Source: Pseudanabaena mucicola FACHB-723 (GTDB lineage Bacteria > Cyanobacteriota > Cyanobacteriia > Pseudanabaenales > Pseudanabaenaceae). From it: a DNA stretch of 33,272 nt. Below, one piece after another: positions 1,181 to 30,670 of the stretch. Numbering within the stretch: position 1 is the first letter of the stretch; each line of letters starts with the position of its first letter. The notes beneath the pieces were generated by a model. The model saw nothing but the letters and a program-made list of their open reading frames with translations. It had not been told where the DNA came from and made no database searches. The stretch covers positions 1 through 33,272 of the forward strand of contig NZ_JACJQB010000039.1 of NCBI RefSeq assembly GCF_014696385.1, read 5' to 3'. The translations under genes and the position numbers were made by a program.

Positions 1181-1225
1181 GACTGAGAAAAGATTATCTA
1201 CAGCCAGCTATGTTGAGACAAACCC

Positions 1226-1287
1226 AAAACCCAAGAGGCGGCGCTTCGCACCGCCTCTTGGGTTTTCAGAAAGCGCAAAGCGCTGTA
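1226..1287. repeat. palindromic repeat family, hairpin plus conserved arm
   Basis: A 16-bp perfect stem (1226-1241 / 1251-1266) is followed by the conserved arm ending in GCGCAAAGCGCTGTA (1273-1287). The arm sequence from the GGTTTT at the stem end matches the arms at 10500-10604 and 13507-13611 at nearly every position. The left side (CTATGTTGAGAC) resembles the opposite arm of those copies. Confidence 0.75.
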
Positions 1288-6376: not shown

Positions 6377-6428
6377 ATGTTCTAAGCCAATTGTCATTGC
6401 TATAAATCAGACTGCAAAAATACGCCAA

Positions 6429-6463
6429 AAAGAAAGGCGATCGCAATGCGATCGCCTTTCTTT
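6429..6463 (-). terminator. terminator of tRNA-Glu copy 1, built from two HIP1 octamers
   Basis: The 16-bp stem is AAAGAAAGGCGATCGC-type with loop AAT, at 6429-6444 and 6448-6463. Each arm contains a full GCGATCGC. It lies 13 bases past the 3' end of the minus-strand tRNA at 6476. Confidence 0.75.
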
Positions 6464-6475
6464 CTGGGTAAAGAA

Positions 6476-6548
6476 TACCCCCAGGGGAATTCGAATCCCC
6501 GTCGCCTCCGTGAAAGGGAGGTGTCCTAGGCCTCTAGACGATGGGGGC
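6476..6548 (-). tRNA. tRNA-Glu (UUC), copy 1
   Basis: The 73-nt cloverleaf on the minus strand starts GCCCCCATCGTCTAGAGG and has the anticodon loop CTTTCAC (UUC) and the T-loop TTCGAAT. The acceptor stem GCCCCCA/TGGGGGT carries discriminator A. CCA is not encoded. Cyanobacteria use glutamyl-tRNA-Glu for tetrapyrrole synthesis as well as translation. It is identical to copy 2 at 6705-6777. Confidence 0.97.
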
Positions 6549-6577
6549 GTGTTCTTGACCTTTATTAATATACACAA

Positions 6578-6642
6578 TGACGTGCAAAAAGAATTAAAAA
6601 ATTTACTCATAGAGCAAATTTTTTAATTCTTTTTGCACGTCA
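6578..6642. repeat. 27-bp perfect stem with 11-nt loop between the two tRNA-Glu genes
   Basis: The arms at 6578-6604 and 6616-6642 are exact complements (beginning TGACGTGCAAAAAGAATT). The loop is ACTCATAGAGC. It lies upstream of tRNA copy 1 and beyond the terminator of copy 2, and it is AT-rich without the GC-rich tip seen elsewhere. Confidence 0.9.
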
Positions 6643-6656
6643 AATAAAATACGCCA

Positions 6657-6695
6657 AAAAAGAAAGACGATCGCATTGCGATCGCCTTTCTTTTT
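6657..6695 (-). terminator. terminator of tRNA-Glu copy 2
   Basis: The stem is 18 bp with one mismatch and loop ATT. It corresponds to the copy 1 terminator, but one arm now has ACGATCGC instead of GCGATCGC, so one HIP1 site is lost. Confidence 0.7.
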
Positions 6696-6704
6696 GGTAA
6701 AGAA

Positions 6705-6777
6705 TACCCCCAGGGGAATTCGAATCCCCGTCGCCTCCGTGAAAGGGAGGTGTCCTAGGCCTCTAGACGATGGGGGC
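6705..6777 (-). tRNA. tRNA-Glu (UUC), copy 2
   Basis: The sequence is identical to copy 1 over all 73 nt. The duplicated unit also covers the terminator side and about 28 bp of upstream promoter DNA (through TATTAATATACACA). The offset between copies is 229 bp. Confidence 0.97.
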
Positions 6778-6845
6778 GTGTTCTTGACCTTTATTAATAT
6801 ACACAGCTATTTGCAAAAACGTCAACACCTAGAGCAAACTTTTTA

Positions 6846-7319: not shown

Positions 7320-7366
7320 AAAACCCAAAAAAGAGAGTTGCGACGCAATTCTCTTTTTTGGGTTTT
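7320..7366. repeat. 23-bp hairpin in a divergent gap
   Basis: The arms at 7320-7342 and 7344-7366 pair with one G-T, beginning AAAACCCAAAAAAGAGA. The left flank (TTTATGTTAGGACAAA) resembles the flank of the repeat at 1226-1287 (CTATGTTGAGACAAA). It lies between the starts of the Nudix gene and the response regulator, so it is not a terminator of either. Confidence 0.75.
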
Positions 7367-8396: not shown

Positions 8397-8457
8397 TGTA
8401 GCTCGTTGAGTCTTTGTGTAGTACGAGCAATTTTTTAAGAAAGCGCAAAGCGCTGTA
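8397..8457. repeat. palindromic repeat copy lacking its stem
   Basis: The left arm (GTTGAGTCTTTGTGTAGTAC, 8404-8423) and right arm (AAGCGCAAAGCGCTGTA, 8441-8457) match those of the 105-bp copies, but the central hairpin is missing. The total is 61 bp. It ends two bases from the stop codon of the SpoIID-like gene. Confidence 0.65.
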
Positions 8458-10499: not shown

Positions 10500-10604
10500 T
10501 ACAACCTATTGAGACTGTGAGTAGTACAGAAATATTTTTAAAAGTGTTGCGAAGCAACACTTTTAAAAATATTTCTGGGTTTTAAGTCAACGCAAAGCGC
10601 TGTA
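10500..10604 (+). repeat. full 105-bp palindromic repeat, copy F
   Basis: Arms TACAACCTATTGAGACTG and AACGCAAAGCGCTGTA enclose a 24-bp perfect stem (10527-10550 / 10554-10577) with loop GAA. The stem runs CAGAAATATTTTTAAAAG to the tip GTGTTGC. It lies between two divergent genes. The copy at 13507-13611 is its opposite-strand partner with the same length and about 85 percent identity by eye. Confidence 0.9.
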
Positions 10605-10650
10605 ATACGGTTTCTAAATTTTGCCTTATGGCAAAAAAGCTTTGCTTAGG

Positions 10651-10680
10651 ATATAAAACCAGAAGGTGAGTGGCAGCGCG
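10651..10680 (+). repeat. half copy of a palindromic repeat
   Basis: ATAAAACCAGAAGGTGAG followed by TGGCAGCGC resembles the left arm of the hairpin at 23031-23079 (ATAAACCAGAAGATGAGTAG then CGGCGC). The complementary right arm is absent. It lies 38 bases upstream of the rluD start. Confidence 0.5.
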
Positions 10681-10717
10681 GACACCCCTCGACTGCTGGG
10701 GTATACAATTAAATGCT

Positions 10718-11680
10718 ATGACTTTAGAACCTCCTATCCAAAATAATACTAATCTGATTGAAGTTGCCGCAGATTTGCCTCAACCTGAACGGATTGATCG
10801 CTTTTTGGCACAGCATCTCACCGATCTATCGCGATCGCGAATCCAAATATTAATTGATGAAGGGTATGTCACTGTTAATGATGTTCTTTGTCATAACAAA
10901 AAGGATTTAATCAAAGCAGGCGATCGCATCCAATTAATTACTCCAGCATCAACAACGCTTGATTTAGTCGCTCAAGAGATTCCCTTAGATGTTCTTTACG
11001 AAGATGAGCATTTGATTGTCATTAATAAACCTGCGGGATTAGTCGTCCATCCTGCGGCAGGACATAGCGATGGCACTTTAGTCAATGCACTCTTAGCCCA
11101 TTGCAAGGAACTATCGGGGATAAATGGAACTCAACGTCCGGGCATAGTGCATCGTTTAGATAAAGATACTAGTGGCGTGATGGTAGTCGCCAAAAACGAT
11201 CGCGCTCATCAAGATTTACAAGCGCAAATTCAAGCAAAAACAGCCCGAAGGGAATATCTAGGAATTGTGCGTGGAGTTCCTAAAACTCAATTAGGGAGTG
11301 AATCGGGAGTCATTGATGCGGCGATTGCTAGACATGCTCGCGATCGCAAAAAAATGGCAGTCATGGAAAATGGACGCAGAGCCGTTACGCATTGGCAAAT
11401 TCACGAGCGACTAGGAAACTATACGCTGGTGAAATTTGATTTGGAAACGGGGCGCACCCATCAAATCCGTGTCCATGCCGCGCATATGGGTTGGGCGATA
11501 GCTGGTGATCCTGTATATGGACATCCCAACAAGGAAGTTTCGCAATATTTGTCAGGTCAAGCTCTCCACGCATGGCGGCTCACCTTTACCCATCCAGTTT
11601 CAGGTGAATTAATTGAAAATACTGCCCCTATTCCTGAAGGCTTTGAAAAGCTATTAGCATTTTTACGCCGCCGAGTATAG
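10718..11680 (+). CDS. rluD: 23S rRNA pseudouridine synthase, RluA/RluD family
   Basis: The product is 320 residues from ATG 10718. It converts specific uridines of large-subunit rRNA to pseudouridine. An S4 RNA-binding domain covers about 24-80 (RIDRFLAQHL, RSRIQILIDEGYVTVND). The catalytic domain has INKPAGLVVHP, the signature GIVHRLDKDTSG with catalytic Asp148, and RTHQIRVHAAHMG. RluD is the nearest match by size and S4 domain, but RluC/RluA paralogs are close. The frame is open up to GTG 10670, which lies in a half repeat with AGAAGG before it; I prefer ATG 10718. TATACAAT at 10702-10709 is a possible -10 box. Confidence 0.9.
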   Translation: MTLEPPIQNNTNLIEVAADLPQPERIDRFLAQHLTDLSRSRIQILIDEGYVTVNDVLCHNKKDLIKAGDRIQLITPASTTLDLVAQEIPLDVLYEDEHLIVINKPAGLVVHPAAGHSDGTLVNALLAHCKELSGINGTQRPGIVHRLDKDTSGVMVVAKNDRAHQDLQAQIQAKTARREYLGIVRGVPKTQLGSESGVIDAAIARHARDRKKMAVMENGRRAVTHWQIHERLGNYTLVKFDLETGRTHQIRVHAAHMGWAIAGDPVYGHPNKEVSQYLSGQALHAWRLTFTHPVSGELIENTAPIPEGFEKLLAFLRRRV

Positions 11681-11690
11681 GGTGGCGTGC

Positions 11691-11705
11691 AAAGTGTCAC
11701 ACTTT
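11691..11705. terminator. short palindrome between convergent rluD and rsmI
   Basis: AAAGTGTCACACTTT is symmetric around one base. It is AT-flanked and lies in the 29-base gap between two convergent stops. It is a weak candidate terminator. Confidence 0.35.
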
Positions 11706-11709
11706 CTGT

Positions 11710-12546
11710 TCATAAAGTGAGGGCTAGTTGATAAATTTGACGACGGGGCAAATCAGCAAGTTCGGCAAGTTGACGACTAGCATCCGATCGCGATATGCCA
11801 GCATCAATCAAATTTTGCAACTCCCGTAAAATCACATCATCTGTCCACACAGGCTTGTCACTGGGTGCTGCACCTTCTAAAACTAGGCTAAATTCACCCT
11901 TCGGTGCGTGAATTGCAAAATGTGCGATCGCAGATTCTATTGATCCTCGCCAAAACTCCTCATGCAGTTTTGTTAATTCTCTTGCGATCGCAATTTGCCG
12001 ATCACCACCCAAAAACTCTGCCAAATCCTCAAGAGTTTTCAATAAACGATGGGGCGCTTCATAGAGAATCATCGTGCGCGTTTCGCATCTTAACACTTCT
12101 AAACGTTCGCGACGTTCCTTTTTATCAACTGGCAGAAATCCATCAAAACCAAAATGCTGTGTGGCAAAACCCGAAGCCGTCAAAGCCGCAATCCCTGCGG
12201 TAACAACAGGAATCGGTACAATTCTGACACCCGCAGCAATACATCCTTGCACCAGTTCTACCCCAGGGTCAGAAATAGCAGGCATCCCTGCATCGGTCAC
12301 TAATGCGATCGAGATGCCTTGCTGCATTTTTTCCACCAGTTCAGGTACACGCTTATGGGCATTATGCTCGTGATAACTAGTTTGCGGAGTATCAATGCCA
12401 AAGTGGTGCAGCAGTTTCCCTGTATGCCGAGTATCCTCAGCCGCAATTAAATCAACTTGCTTTAGCGTCGCGATCGCTCGAAAGGTCATGTCCTCCAAAT
12501 TACCAATTGGAGTTCCCACCAAGTACAGAATTCCCGGATCATCCAT
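11710..12546 (-). CDS. rsmI: 16S rRNA 2'-O-ribose C1402 methyltransferase
   Basis: The product is 278 residues and belongs to the tetrapyrrole-methylase-fold SAM enzymes. RsmI methylates the ribose of C1402 in the 16S decoding centre. Visible signatures are YLVGTPIGNLEDMTFRA at the N-terminus, LIAAEDTRHTGKLL, SYHEHNAHKR and VTDAGMPAISDPG. The C-terminal half has ILYEAPHRL and REL(T)KLHEE. It follows the phasin-like gene after 3 bases on the same strand, so they are co-transcribed. Confidence 0.96.
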   Translation of the reverse strand: MDDPGILYLVGTPIGNLEDMTFRAIATLKQVDLIAAEDTRHTGKLLHHFGIDTPQTSYHEHNAHKRVPELVEKMQQGISIALVTDAGMPAISDPGVELVQGCIAAGVRIVPIPVVTAGIAALTASGFATQHFGFDGFLPVDKKERRERLEVLRCETRTMILYEAPHRLLKTLEDLAEFLGGDRQIAIARELTKLHEEFWRGSIESAIAHFAIHAPKGEFSLVLEGAAPSDKPVWTDDVILRELQNLIDAGISRSDASRQLAELADLPRRQIYQLALTL

Positions 12547-12549
12547 GAA

Positions 12550-12873
12550 TTAGCGCCATTGTTTATTTTCTAATTCACGAAGCTGACGCTCTAGGCGATC
12601 AATTCTTCCGCGTAACTCATCCATTTCATTTTGACGAGGTACACCCAAGTCTTGCATGACATTACGAATTTGGCGCTGAATTAAAGTCTCCAAATTTCCC
12701 TGCTCTGACTTGAGACGATCGGCAATATCATTGAAAATTTCTGAAGCTTGCTCAGGATCGATCTTGCCATCCTTAACCCAATCCTCACTGGCTTCTTTAA
12801 TCTTCTCTAGCACAATCGAAGTTGTGCCAACACCAAGCATGAGTAACTGCTTGAGCAAATTATTGCTATCCAT
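12550..12873 (-). CDS. phasin-like/coiled-coil small protein
   Basis: The product is 107 residues. The N-terminal part (LLKQLLMLGVGTTSIVLEKIKEAS) is amphipathic and the C-terminal half (about 75-105) is a short coiled coil (MDELRGRIDRLERQLRELEN). This matches the small PHA-granule-associated/PhaF-like phasins and related cyanobacterial proteins. A role at polymer granules is one possibility, but no phaC or phaE is near, so the function is uncertain. It reads directly into rsmI with a 3-base gap, so the two genes form an operon. Confidence 0.7.
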   Translation of the reverse strand: MDSNNLLKQLLMLGVGTTSIVLEKIKEASEDWVKDGKIDPEQASEIFNDIADRLKSEQGNLETLIQRQIRNVMQDLGVPRQNEMDELRGRIDRLERQLRELENKQWR

Positions 12874-12967
12874 AAATGTACGCGATCCTCAAAGCCGATC
12901 TATCAATCCATCATACTATGCTCTTTTCATAGTCTAAGGAATAGGGTGAATAACTTACGCTTAGCGA

Positions 12968-12975
12968 TTGCTATA
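12968..12975. repeat. isolated TTGCTATA motif
   Basis: This octamer also occurs at 1301, 6321, 6397, 18263, 23090 and (reverse complement) 33067, mostly next to hairpins. Here it stands alone in the gap before the cyclophilin gene. Confidence 0.4.
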
Positions 12976-13022
12976 CTTTAAGCTGATTAAAACTTTAGAA
13001 AAAATTTCAGGTAAGTTTATTT

Positions 13023-13505
13023 ATGATCCGTGCTGTAATCGAAACCGCTAAAGGAACTATGCGTGCTGAGTTGGATGACCAACACGCACCTATCACCGTC
13101 AAGAATTTTGTAGACCTCGCTAAGCACGGTTTTTATGACGGGCTGACCTTTCACCGAGTTGAGCCAGGCTTTGTGATCCAAGGTGGCGATCCCCTTGGCA
13201 ATGGTACTGGTGGCTCTGGCGATCGCATCAAGTTAGAAATTTGGGCAGAGGGAGACACCGCCGCAACCGTCGGCAATGTTTTGACTGGTGGCAAAAAGCC
13301 AATCATCAAACACAACAAAGCAGGTGTATTTTCCATGGCACGCACCAATGATCCCAACAGTGCCACAAGTCAGTTTTTTGTAACTCTTGGCGATGCATCT
13401 TTCCTCGATGGTCAATATGCAGCTTTTGGCTACACTGAGGACACAGAAGTAGCTCAAGCTATCCGTCGCGGCGACAAGATCCTCTCTATTAAAATCGAAG
13501 ATTAA
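13023..13505 (+). CDS. cyclophilin-type peptidyl-prolyl cis-trans isomerase
   Basis: The product is 160 residues, a single cyclophilin domain without signal peptide, so it is probably cytoplasmic. It speeds proline isomerisation during folding. Motifs are NFVDLAKHGFYDGLTFHRVEPGFVIQGGDP, FSMARTNDPNSATSQFFV and FLDGQYAAFGY. The Trp of cyclosporin-sensitive enzymes is replaced (AAFGY region), as in most bacterial members. A full repeat copy begins 2 bases after its stop. Confidence 0.93.
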   Translation: MIRAVIETAKGTMRAELDDQHAPITVKNFVDLAKHGFYDGLTFHRVEPGFVIQGGDPLGNGTGGSGDRIKLEIWAEGDTAATVGNVLTGGKKPIIKHNKAGVFSMARTNDPNSATSQFFVTLGDASFLDGQYAAFGYTEDTEVAQAIRRGDKILSIKIED

Positions 13506-13506
13506 A

Positions 13507-13611
13507 TACAGCGCTTTGCGCTTTATTAAAACCCAGAAATATTTTTAAAAGCGGCGCGAAGCGCCGCTTTTAAAAATATTTCTGTACTACTCAAAGCCTC
13601 AATAGGCTGTA
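13507..13611 (-). repeat. full 105-bp palindromic repeat, copy G (inverted)
   Basis: The element runs TACAGCGCTTTGCGC, AAAACCCAG, stem, CTGTACTACTC, CAATAGGCTGTA. The stem is 24 bp (13534-13557 / 13561-13584) with loop GAA on the + strand. Relative to copy F the tip is GCGGCGC instead of GTGTTGC, with exact compensating changes on the other arm. Confidence 0.9.
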
Positions 13612-18576: not shown

Positions 18577-19065
18577 ATGACCGTTACCACTTCTCAAAAT
18601 GAACAGCTTGGGGCTGCAATTGGCGCAATTCCCAGTGGCTTGTTTATTGTTACCTCTCAGCAAAATGGCAAAACTGCAACGATGTTAGCGTCATGGGTGC
18701 AACAAGCAGGCTTTGAGCCACCATCTGTAACGATCATCGTTGGCAAAAGTAGACCAATTGAGTCTTTTTTGACAGTAGGTAGCCCTGTTGTGATCAATAT
18801 TCTTGCTAAGGGTGATGGTAAGAGTATTGGTCATTTTGCTAAGGGTTTTGCTCCTGATGTCGATCCCTTGGATGGCGTGGAAACTGCAATTGCCCCCAGT
18901 GGTCAACCCTATTTGACGGATGCGATCGCCTATCTTGATGCCACAGTAGCAGGCAGCCTTGATGCTGGCGACCATACGGTAATTTTGGCAAACCTAAATG
19001 CTGGTGAACGACTCCATGAAGGAGATTCTGCTATTCACACTCGTAAAAACGGCTTCAAATATTAA
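18577..19065 (+). CDS. flavin reductase-like FMN-binding split-barrel protein
   Basis: The product is 162 residues. The family binds FMN and reduces flavin with NAD(P)H, or forms the C-terminal flavin reductase module of cyanobacterial flavodiiron proteins; this is a free-standing version. Motifs are IPSGLFIVTSQQNGK, TMLASWVQQAGFEPPSV, GSPVVINIL and AGDHTVILANL. No signal peptide or metal motif is visible. The TAA stop at 19063 is the first base pair region of a 29-bp hairpin. Substrate is not known. Confidence 0.85.
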   Translation: MTVTTSQNEQLGAAIGAIPSGLFIVTSQQNGKTATMLASWVQQAGFEPPSVTIIVGKSRPIESFLTVGSPVVINILAKGDGKSIGHFAKGFAPDVDPLDGVETAIAPSGQPYLTDAIAYLDATVAGSLDAGDHTVILANLNAGERLHEGDSAIHTRKNGFKY

Positions 19066-19124
19066 TTTCTAAAATCTTTTTTAACTACTGCGTTTGCGGT
19101 AGTTAAAAAAGATTTTAGAAATTA
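19063..19124. repeat. 29-bp hairpin overlapping the flavin reductase stop
   Basis: The arms TAATTTCTAAAATC... (19063-19091) and its complement (19096-19124) pair with one G-T; the loop is GTTT. The hairpin starts at the stop codon. It probably terminates the transcript, but it is much longer than needed. Confidence 0.8.
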
Positions 19125-28854: not shown

Positions 28855-28859
28855 TCATT

Positions 28860-28914
28860 CCAAAAACAAAAAGGGGTGGCAGCGCAAAGCGCTGCCACCC
28901 CTTTTTGTTTTTGG
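28860..28914. repeat. 26-bp perfect hairpin after sir
   Basis: The arms (28860-28885 / 28889-28914) are exact complements with an AAA loop; the tip is GGCAGCGC-AAA-GCGCTGCC. It should terminate sir. The tip resembles the GCGCAAAGCGC arm of the palindromic family. Confidence 0.88.
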
Positions 28915-28956
28915 AGTTATGGCATAATAGCGATACCGCGACTCACTGCTGAAGTT

Positions 28957-30598: not shown

Positions 30599-30670
30599 CT
30601 TTTGAAATCGCCCTCTTCTCGGACAATTTCAAAAGTGTCTCTGGATTTTAATTCAGCGCTTTGTGCTGAA
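30599..30670. repeat. degenerate palindromic repeat
   Basis: CTTTTGAAAT and ATTTCAAAAG (30599-30608 / 30626-30635) form an outer stem whose inner 17 bases no longer pair. CTGGATTTTAATTCAGCGC, just downstream, resembles the family arm CTGGGTTTTAATAAAGCGC. Confidence 0.5.

Follow-up and report, generated by a model that had tools for sequence, protein, structure and literature searches.

In the portions of the literature on which we draw here, template switching between the arms of inverted repeats has been described several times. In yeast it homogenizes the arms and inverts the spacer between them, with arms of more than 9 bp and in a reversible manner (PMC8604942), and the same paper refers to earlier work suggesting that switching between short inverted repeat arms occurs repeatedly and is common in proteobacteria. 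Template-switch mutations have further been proposed to maintain RNA hairpins, producing compensated changes instantly along with loop inversions, with bacterial rRNA among the examples (PMC8794818). In Escherichia coli, reporter assays reveal quasipalindrome correction, in which a template switch brings imperfect inverted repeats closer to perfection (PMC7202029). In chloroplasts, 5-50-bp segments between inverted repeats of 11-24 bp undergo flip-flop inversion, which has been ascribed to recombination (PMC12928735). Template-switch inversion (yeast, E. coli; chloroplast flip-flop) is thus already known, as are elements of the miniature inverted-repeat transposable element (MITE) type. Here we analyze a 105-bp palindromic element that is present in two copies in the window, which is the entire contig C33 (33,272 bp) of the 3.96-Mb draft genome (G000) of Pseudanabaena mucicola FACHB-723. 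We consider it quite probable that this element is a MITE moved by an IS630-type transposase and that its hairpin is re-copied in place, with covarying stem tips and unlinked loop orientation resulting from copying rather than from selection on RNA.

Structure of the Element

The two copies form an inverted repeat of 105 nt with 85% complementarity, in agreement with the original prediction of two inverted 105-bp copies about 85% alike. A cyclophilin gene precedes copy A (13507-13611, forward strand; 105 bp including the terminal TA on both sides), which starts 1 nt past the stop codon of that gene. Copy B (10500-10604, reverse strand) is located between a 112-aa open reading frame (ORF) and a divergent pseudouridine synthase gene. 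At the center of each copy is a hairpin with a 24-nt stem that is 100% complementary and a 3-nt loop. In copy A it spans 13534-13584 on the forward strand (stem 13534-13557/13561-13584, loop GAA at 13558-13560), and in copy B it spans 10527-10577 on the reverse strand (stem 10527-10550/10554-10577, loop 10551-10553). The DNA folding z-scores are -8.84 and -10.50, and for either copy 0 of 200 shuffles fold as well. The two stems indeed differ by three compensated changes at their tips, and the GAA loop lies on the + strand in both copies. It had been concluded from this that the tip is not tied to the flanks, which turned out to be the right clue, as the tip inverts in place.

Loop Inversion between Orthologous Hairpins

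We compared 267 kb of orthologous sequence from two relatives, G006 and G007, which are 99.5% identical over this length, and counted inversions in non-overlapping (de-nested) perfect hairpins found on the G006 side. Nearly all compared copies of the element are common to both genomes. The hairpin is found reverse-complemented in 8 of 18 orthologous family copies with a stem beginning CAGAAATATTTT, and in three of these eight (L139:3216, L151:10018, and L152:9581) a mismatched tip has been inverted as a whole block. When all hairpins with loops of 3-5 nt are considered, inversion is absent from stems of 8-11 bp (0/19; 0/15 at 8-9 bp and 0/4 at 10-11 bp) and present in longer ones: 5/17 at 12-14 bp, 4/12 at 15-17 bp, 12/22 at 18-20 bp, and 10/21 at 21 bp or more (one more being unclear), which amounts to 22/43 from 18 bp upward. 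With stems of at least 15 bp, 26 of 55 hairpins are inverted (95% interval 0.34-0.61), the rate expected of a fully randomized orientation. Loops of 6-12 nt are inverted in 0/64 cases below an 18-bp stem and in 6/17 cases from 18 bp onward (one unclear), and loops of 13-40 nt in 2/181 (4 unclear).

Two further genome pairs were analyzed for loops of 3-12 nt, with orientation assigned by the nearer match: G022/G015 (88 kb, 93% identical) and G005/G018 (82 kb, 92% identical). Among G022, G025, G015, and G007, which we compared around one anchor gene, only G022 and G015 could be aligned over a long distance, and the other five pairs, with 2-6 hairpins of stem ≥10 bp each, were excluded. In G022/G015, stems of at least 15 bp yield 4 inverted hairpins, 1 in the same orientation, 1 tie, and 5 set aside for indels; stems of 12-14 bp yield 3 inverted, 1 same, and 1 indel; and stems of 8-11 bp yield 0 inverted, 18 same, 2 ties, and 2 indels. 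The corresponding counts in G005/G018 are 11 inverted, 6 same, and 10 indels (at least 15 bp); 0 inverted, 1 same, and 1 indel (12-14 bp); and 1 inverted, 17 same, 1 tie, and 2 indels (8-11 bp). At orthologous sites in all three genome pairs, flipped hairpins have conserved arms and an exactly inverted spacer.

Hairpins of stem ≥12 bp and loop 3-12 nt are dense in G006 (114 in 267 kb), whereas 96 kb of E. coli K-12 contains 2. A lack of SbcCD was considered as the cause of this abundance and rejected: SbcD-like matches are present in 37/37 genomes of the order, 36 of them above the family cut-off (SbcC was not searched). Separately, a 3.1-kb locus of another relative (L042; G020:C184) shares ~99% identity with G006/G007, much more than is usual between these genomes, and represents either contamination or a recent transfer.

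Both Arms Change Together

We then counted paired changes in stems of at least 12 bp, and the same result was obtained after removing overlapping hairpins. Compensated pairs that arose in place number 3 in G006/G007, 11 in G022/G015, and 16 in G005/G018, where independent change of the two arms would yield 0.013, 0.32, and 0.42, respectively (30 observed in total versus about 0.8). Single-sided changes number 12, 3, and 9 in the same order, and one G005/G018 pair has changed on both sides without pairing. The three compensated pairs of G006/G007 sit in two hairpins, both of which have inverted loops. In the two more distant genome pairs, 12 of 27 compensated changes are transversions on both arms, for which there is no G·U intermediate. 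The original prediction had listed copying of the paired structure among its options, and the paired arm changes together with loop inversion in place support this choice.

We propose that in long perfect hairpins of these genomes, whether of this family or not, the middle would frequently be re-copied in place from the opposite strand. Re-copying would invert the loop plus any mismatched tip, which would account for the inversions observed, and would overwrite differences between the arms, so that both arms change together in the manner of the observed paired changes. The arms are thus probably kept alike by copying, not by selection on RNA. Judging from these outcomes, the likeliest cause is that the polymerase switches template from one arm to the other during replication, and the chief competing explanation is a cruciform or recombination route: inversion requires a long stem combined with a short loop, the stems involved are unrelated, and the arms change in step, and these features match the footprint described for template switching. 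If flipping follows a symmetric two-state model, a hairpin would flip at least about 100 times as often as a single site is substituted (lower confidence bound at 0.5% divergence). We regard it as an even bet that, in Pseudanabaena generally, fast and sequence-independent hairpin copying holds all long palindromes close to perfection and randomizes the orientation of their loops, with a speed that would probably suffice for both orientations to be mixed among the chromosome copies within one culture.

Alternatively, the inversions may be real but arise without template switching by the polymerase, through reciprocal recombination, cruciform processing, or an invertase. We consider this unlikely, although it is the alternative that survives best. 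Whole mismatched tips invert as a block in the three family copies mentioned above, as such a route would allow, and homologous recombination is the explanation given for the small chloroplast inversions (PMC12928735). An invertase is disfavored because the flipping stems are unrelated in sequence when compared by eye and no specific site is apparent (no invertase search was made). As for recombination, loops of 3 nt would leave little room for synapsis, and a simple reciprocal exchange would not homogenize the arms, yet paired changes occur.

Covariation across the Family

Selection on an RNA (or DNA) hairpin, with compensatory point mutations restoring the pairing one by one, is the reading that stem covariation would normally suggest. 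An alignment of 104 distinct 105-nt family sequences has 2355 of 2496 central stem cells paired, far above 500 column shuffles (mean 1939, maximum 1972), and the predicted covariation of the stems is hence borne out at family scale. The 283 double-changed cells in the central stem and the in-place paired changes in all three genome pairs are what selection on pairing would produce. Such selection does not predict loop inversion, however, and paired changes are already found at 0.5% divergence. The central stem departs from the consensus more often per base (0.144) than the unpaired arms (0.093). Two 5-bp mini-hairpins in the arms (in copy A, on the forward strand, AGCGC-TTT-GCGCT at 13510-13522 on the left and AGCCT-CAAT-AGGCT at 13595-13608 on the right) do not covary: 453 and 463 of 520 cells are paired, with shuffle means of 453.0 and 462.4. 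There is also no wobble preference among central stem mismatches (G·T 45, A·C 52), a weak argument because these were counted in element orientation with the orientation relative to transcription uncontrolled. Rfam covariance models run on the window at the gathering score returned three tRNAs only, with no match to the element, and a structured RNA was rejected on this ground. We thus find it very unlikely that selection on the paired structure, which the original prediction had put forward as a possibility, is the main cause. The loops of the same 104 sequences occur in near-equal reverse-complement pairs in the central hairpin (TTC/GAA 28/25, TCC/GGA 14/10, AAA/TTT 8/6), and the left mini-hairpin has a TTT loop in 98 of 104.

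The loop inversions could also be artifacts of assembly, given that G006 is a metagenome assembly in 160 contigs and that short-read graphs can confuse hairpin arms. Stems of 12-17 bp flip as well, however (9/29), and these are below the usual assembler k-mer sizes and too short to confuse assemblers. Flips are seen again when two contiguous assemblies, G022 (1 contig) and G015 (8 contigs), are compared, and loop orientations are balanced over the 104 family sequences, which come from many genomes. Inverted loops are found even inside the window, where a tandemly duplicated tRNA-Glu (ttc) at 6425-6819 carries the same non-family hairpin in each unit, once with loop AAT (6425-6468, no strand assigned) and once with loop ATT (6654-6697, likewise). 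Assembly error is an unlikely source of the inversions, and we give this view very little credence.

Insertion at TA Sites and a Probable IS630-type Partner

Intact copies start with TACAGC and end with GCTGTA. We searched the joined flanks of 140 sites against all Pseudanabaena sequence compared and found empty sites for two of them: L040:1501, for which L211, L144, and L116 are clearly empty, and L123:9762, for which G022 is empty with weaker flanks. Both empty sites have a single TA where the occupied sites have a TA on each side, which represents a TA target-site duplication. A TA target points to the IS630/Tc1-mariner group.

A putative partner insertion sequence (IS) was located by a DDE_3 transposase search followed by a search for TA-flanked inverted repeats. 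In G022, a 1,032-bp element (L293:999-2030) has ORFs matching HTH_Tnp_IS630 and DDE_3, and its left end matches the element right arm (in copy A, 13583-13611 on the reverse strand) at 25 of 29 positions. A degenerate end pattern (≤2 mismatches) identifies 12 left and 12 right IS ends at matching distances in G015. All six hits of this pattern in G000 are ends of the element itself. The partner IS thus occurs in relatives, and in G000 it was not detected. The element, at 105 bp, multi-copy and dispersed, codes for no transposase. It would be a non-autonomous element of the MITE type that inserts at TA dinucleotides, as the TA sites and the one shared end suggest, and would most likely be moved in trans by an IS630-family transposase recognizing TACAGCCTATTGAGG..GAGTAGTACA ends. 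The idea of a mobile palindromic element, raised from the two window copies, is in line with the copy number, the intergenic placement, the TA empty sites, and the IS630-like end. A sequence resembling a repetitive extragenic palindrome (REP) had also been raised originally, and a REP or REPIN moved by a RAYT (Y1 HUH) transposase would fit an element that is palindromic, intergenic, and multi-copy with a GTAG close to the hairpin. This view was rejected as hardly credible (no RAYT search was made), since each copy is bordered by two TAs and the empty sites have a single one, the TACAGC..GCTGTA ends with a TA target are as for a DDE transposase, and the GTAG is part of the IS630-like terminal repeat and is separated from the stem by some bases.

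Two side observations concern insertions in these genomes. Many G000 contigs (C3, C17, C21, C23, and others) begin inside the same DDE_3 (IS630-type) transposase, and collapsed IS copies consequently break the assembly. Between G006 and G007, 711 bp including a weak family match (L134:13135-13847) are replaced by 217 bp with another hairpin (L117:14183-14401).

Evidence against Copying and Mobilization

Several observations weigh against the combined picture of a mobile element with a re-copied hairpin. Regarding copying, similar footprints would also be expected from cruciform processing or from recombination at short homologies. Hairpins with indels had to be dropped from the paired count (2/114 in G006/G007, 6/16 in G022/G015, and 11/29 in G005/G018). 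The paired changes are not independent events, as one switch may yield several of them. In total, 24 single-sided changes stand beside the 30 compensated ones, and the singles exceed the doubles in G006/G007 (12 versus 3), so arm correction is not instant. In G005/G018, 8 of the 16 compensated changes are in hairpins with a non-inverted loop. The E. coli K-12 versus BL21 comparison is too small to act as a control, with only 2 hairpins of stem ≥12 bp in 96 kb, both in the same orientation.

Regarding mobilization, an empty site could be read at only 2 of 140 sites, and the flanks of the second align at just 41 and 45 of 55 positions. The left arm and the IS end have only the terminal TACAGC in common; membership of the element in the IS630-type MITEs is therefore likely but not complete. 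Present mobilization in G000 is doubtful, because no IS with these ends was found there, and the comparison of G006 and G007 contains no clear recent insertion of a 105-bp copy.

Family Size and Distribution

In G000, at least 14 places cover positions 1-105 of the query and at least 7 more cover 75 nt or longer, among the 40 of 172 first-look candidates that were scored. Family matches occur in 26/26 genomes of the genus (E≤0.001, and again at E≤1e-8), and no match was found in 12 genomes from seven sister genera, some of which are only 74-85% complete. An exact 20-nt right-arm search of the GTDB collection returned 85 stretches titled Pseudanabaena, Phormidium tenue FACHB-1050, Oscillatoriales cyanobacterium CG2_30_44_21, or uncultured cyanobacterium. 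The element is also present in five Pseudanabaena plasmid records; the phage records searched gave no match, and neither did the viral contigs searched with the exact 20-mer. Across the Pseudanabaena sequences compared, 140 distinct sites have a copy of nearly full length, and at 107 of these sites the copy is exactly 105 nt. Copies are intergenic, overlapping an ORF of ≥100 aa at 6 of 123 testable sites versus 1854 of 2460 random positions. The genes flanking 106 copies are arranged (+,+) in 35 cases, (-,-) in 28, divergently in 32, and convergently in 11; a terminator role was rejected because copies are not concentrated at convergent gene ends.

At the two sites of the window, none of the 24 relatives whose neighbor gene was located has a full-length copy; beside the synthase gene, many relatives have a different upstream sequence by eye, and only part of these sites are truly orthologous. 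Diverged partial matches were detected in G020 beside the cyclophilin gene and in G013 beside the synthase gene, G002 has an arm fragment, and several other relatives have weak matches to the hairpin part. The element is thus found in many copies, and full-length copies are missing beside the corresponding neighbor genes of these relatives, the two points on which the original prediction had asked to be checked. The diverged relative of the element in G020 (L060) lies within a few bases of the copy A position, right after the cyclophilin stop, and may be either an independent insertion or an old copy that was rebuilt.

Other Features in the Window

The arms recur elsewhere, as had been noted: left-arm matches are located at 1259-1287 and 8433-8457, and 70 BLAST pieces are found genome-wide at E≤10, some of which are the self-complementary half of another piece. 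The first match belongs to a related element at 1199-1287 (reverse strand; ends read by eye), in which the family left arm and ends enclose an entirely different palindrome (AAAACCCAAGAGGCGG...), suggesting that family arms and central hairpin may combine as modules. The second belongs to a related element at 8397-8457 (reverse strand; ends read by eye) that has the arms only, without a central hairpin. A partial diverged match is found at 30599-30668 (reverse strand; model positions 3-70, 26.7 bits). The window has further long hairpins, near-perfect and unrelated in sequence, at 6578-6642, 7320-7366, 19063-19124, and 28859-28915.

Implications

In the open-licence PMC literature, we found no bacterial genome with long hairpins at or near orientation equilibrium, nor this family, which may be in print elsewhere. 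RNA structure is normally proven by stem covariation, and here strong covariation (30 pairs versus about 0.8) accompanies loop inversion in place. In genomes of this kind, screens for structured RNA could score many of these hairpins as functional. If hairpins are re-copied as proposed, covariation would be no evidence for RNA function in such genomes, and palindromes would be self-repairing, so that a mobile element carrying one would keep its structure without selection. The persistence of perfect palindromes would become directly testable, with the loop as a built-in recorder of each event; extrapolating from the 114 hairpins in 267 kb of G006, each genome would have well over a thousand of these recorders.

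Comparison with Known Systems

We compared the element to systems for which related behavior has been described. Like IS630/Tc1-mariner MITEs, it is short, non-coding, and intergenic, uses a TA target, and has one end in common with an IS630-type IS of the genus. Unlike them, it has a terminal inverted repeat of only 6 bp (TACAGC), its bulk is a 51-bp hairpin, and a different hairpin can sit between similar arms, as at 1199-1287. The cyanobacterial small dispersed repeats (Elhai 2008) and the Nezha MITE (Zhou 2008), compared here by description only as cited in PMC3733652, are likewise small and dispersed. REPINs are also intergenic hairpins with compensatory changes on either side, but in the account drawn on here (PMC3116915) they have REP-doublet ends and a RAYT partner, whereas our element has TA sites and an IS630-like end.

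With respect to hairpin copying, the small inversions of chloroplasts flip-flop in the same way, although in an organelle rather than a free-living bacterium, and arm copying is not included in the portion of PMC12928735 used here. Quasipalindrome correction in E. coli resembles our findings in the correction of arms, and loop inversion is not treated in the corresponding portion of PMC7202029. Template switches in RNA genes produce compensated changes and loop inversions without two-step selection, as we propose here; the loop inversions reported are few, with 69 in the rRNA data as given in PMC8794818, whereas the orientation of our hairpins is near saturation. Template switching in yeast likewise leaves an inverted spacer between conserved arms and homogenizes the arms. 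There, PMC8604942 describes 10 inversion events in coding genes, whereas in Pseudanabaena nearly half of the hairpins with a stem of at least 15 bp and a loop of 3-5 nt differ between two genomes that are 0.5% apart.

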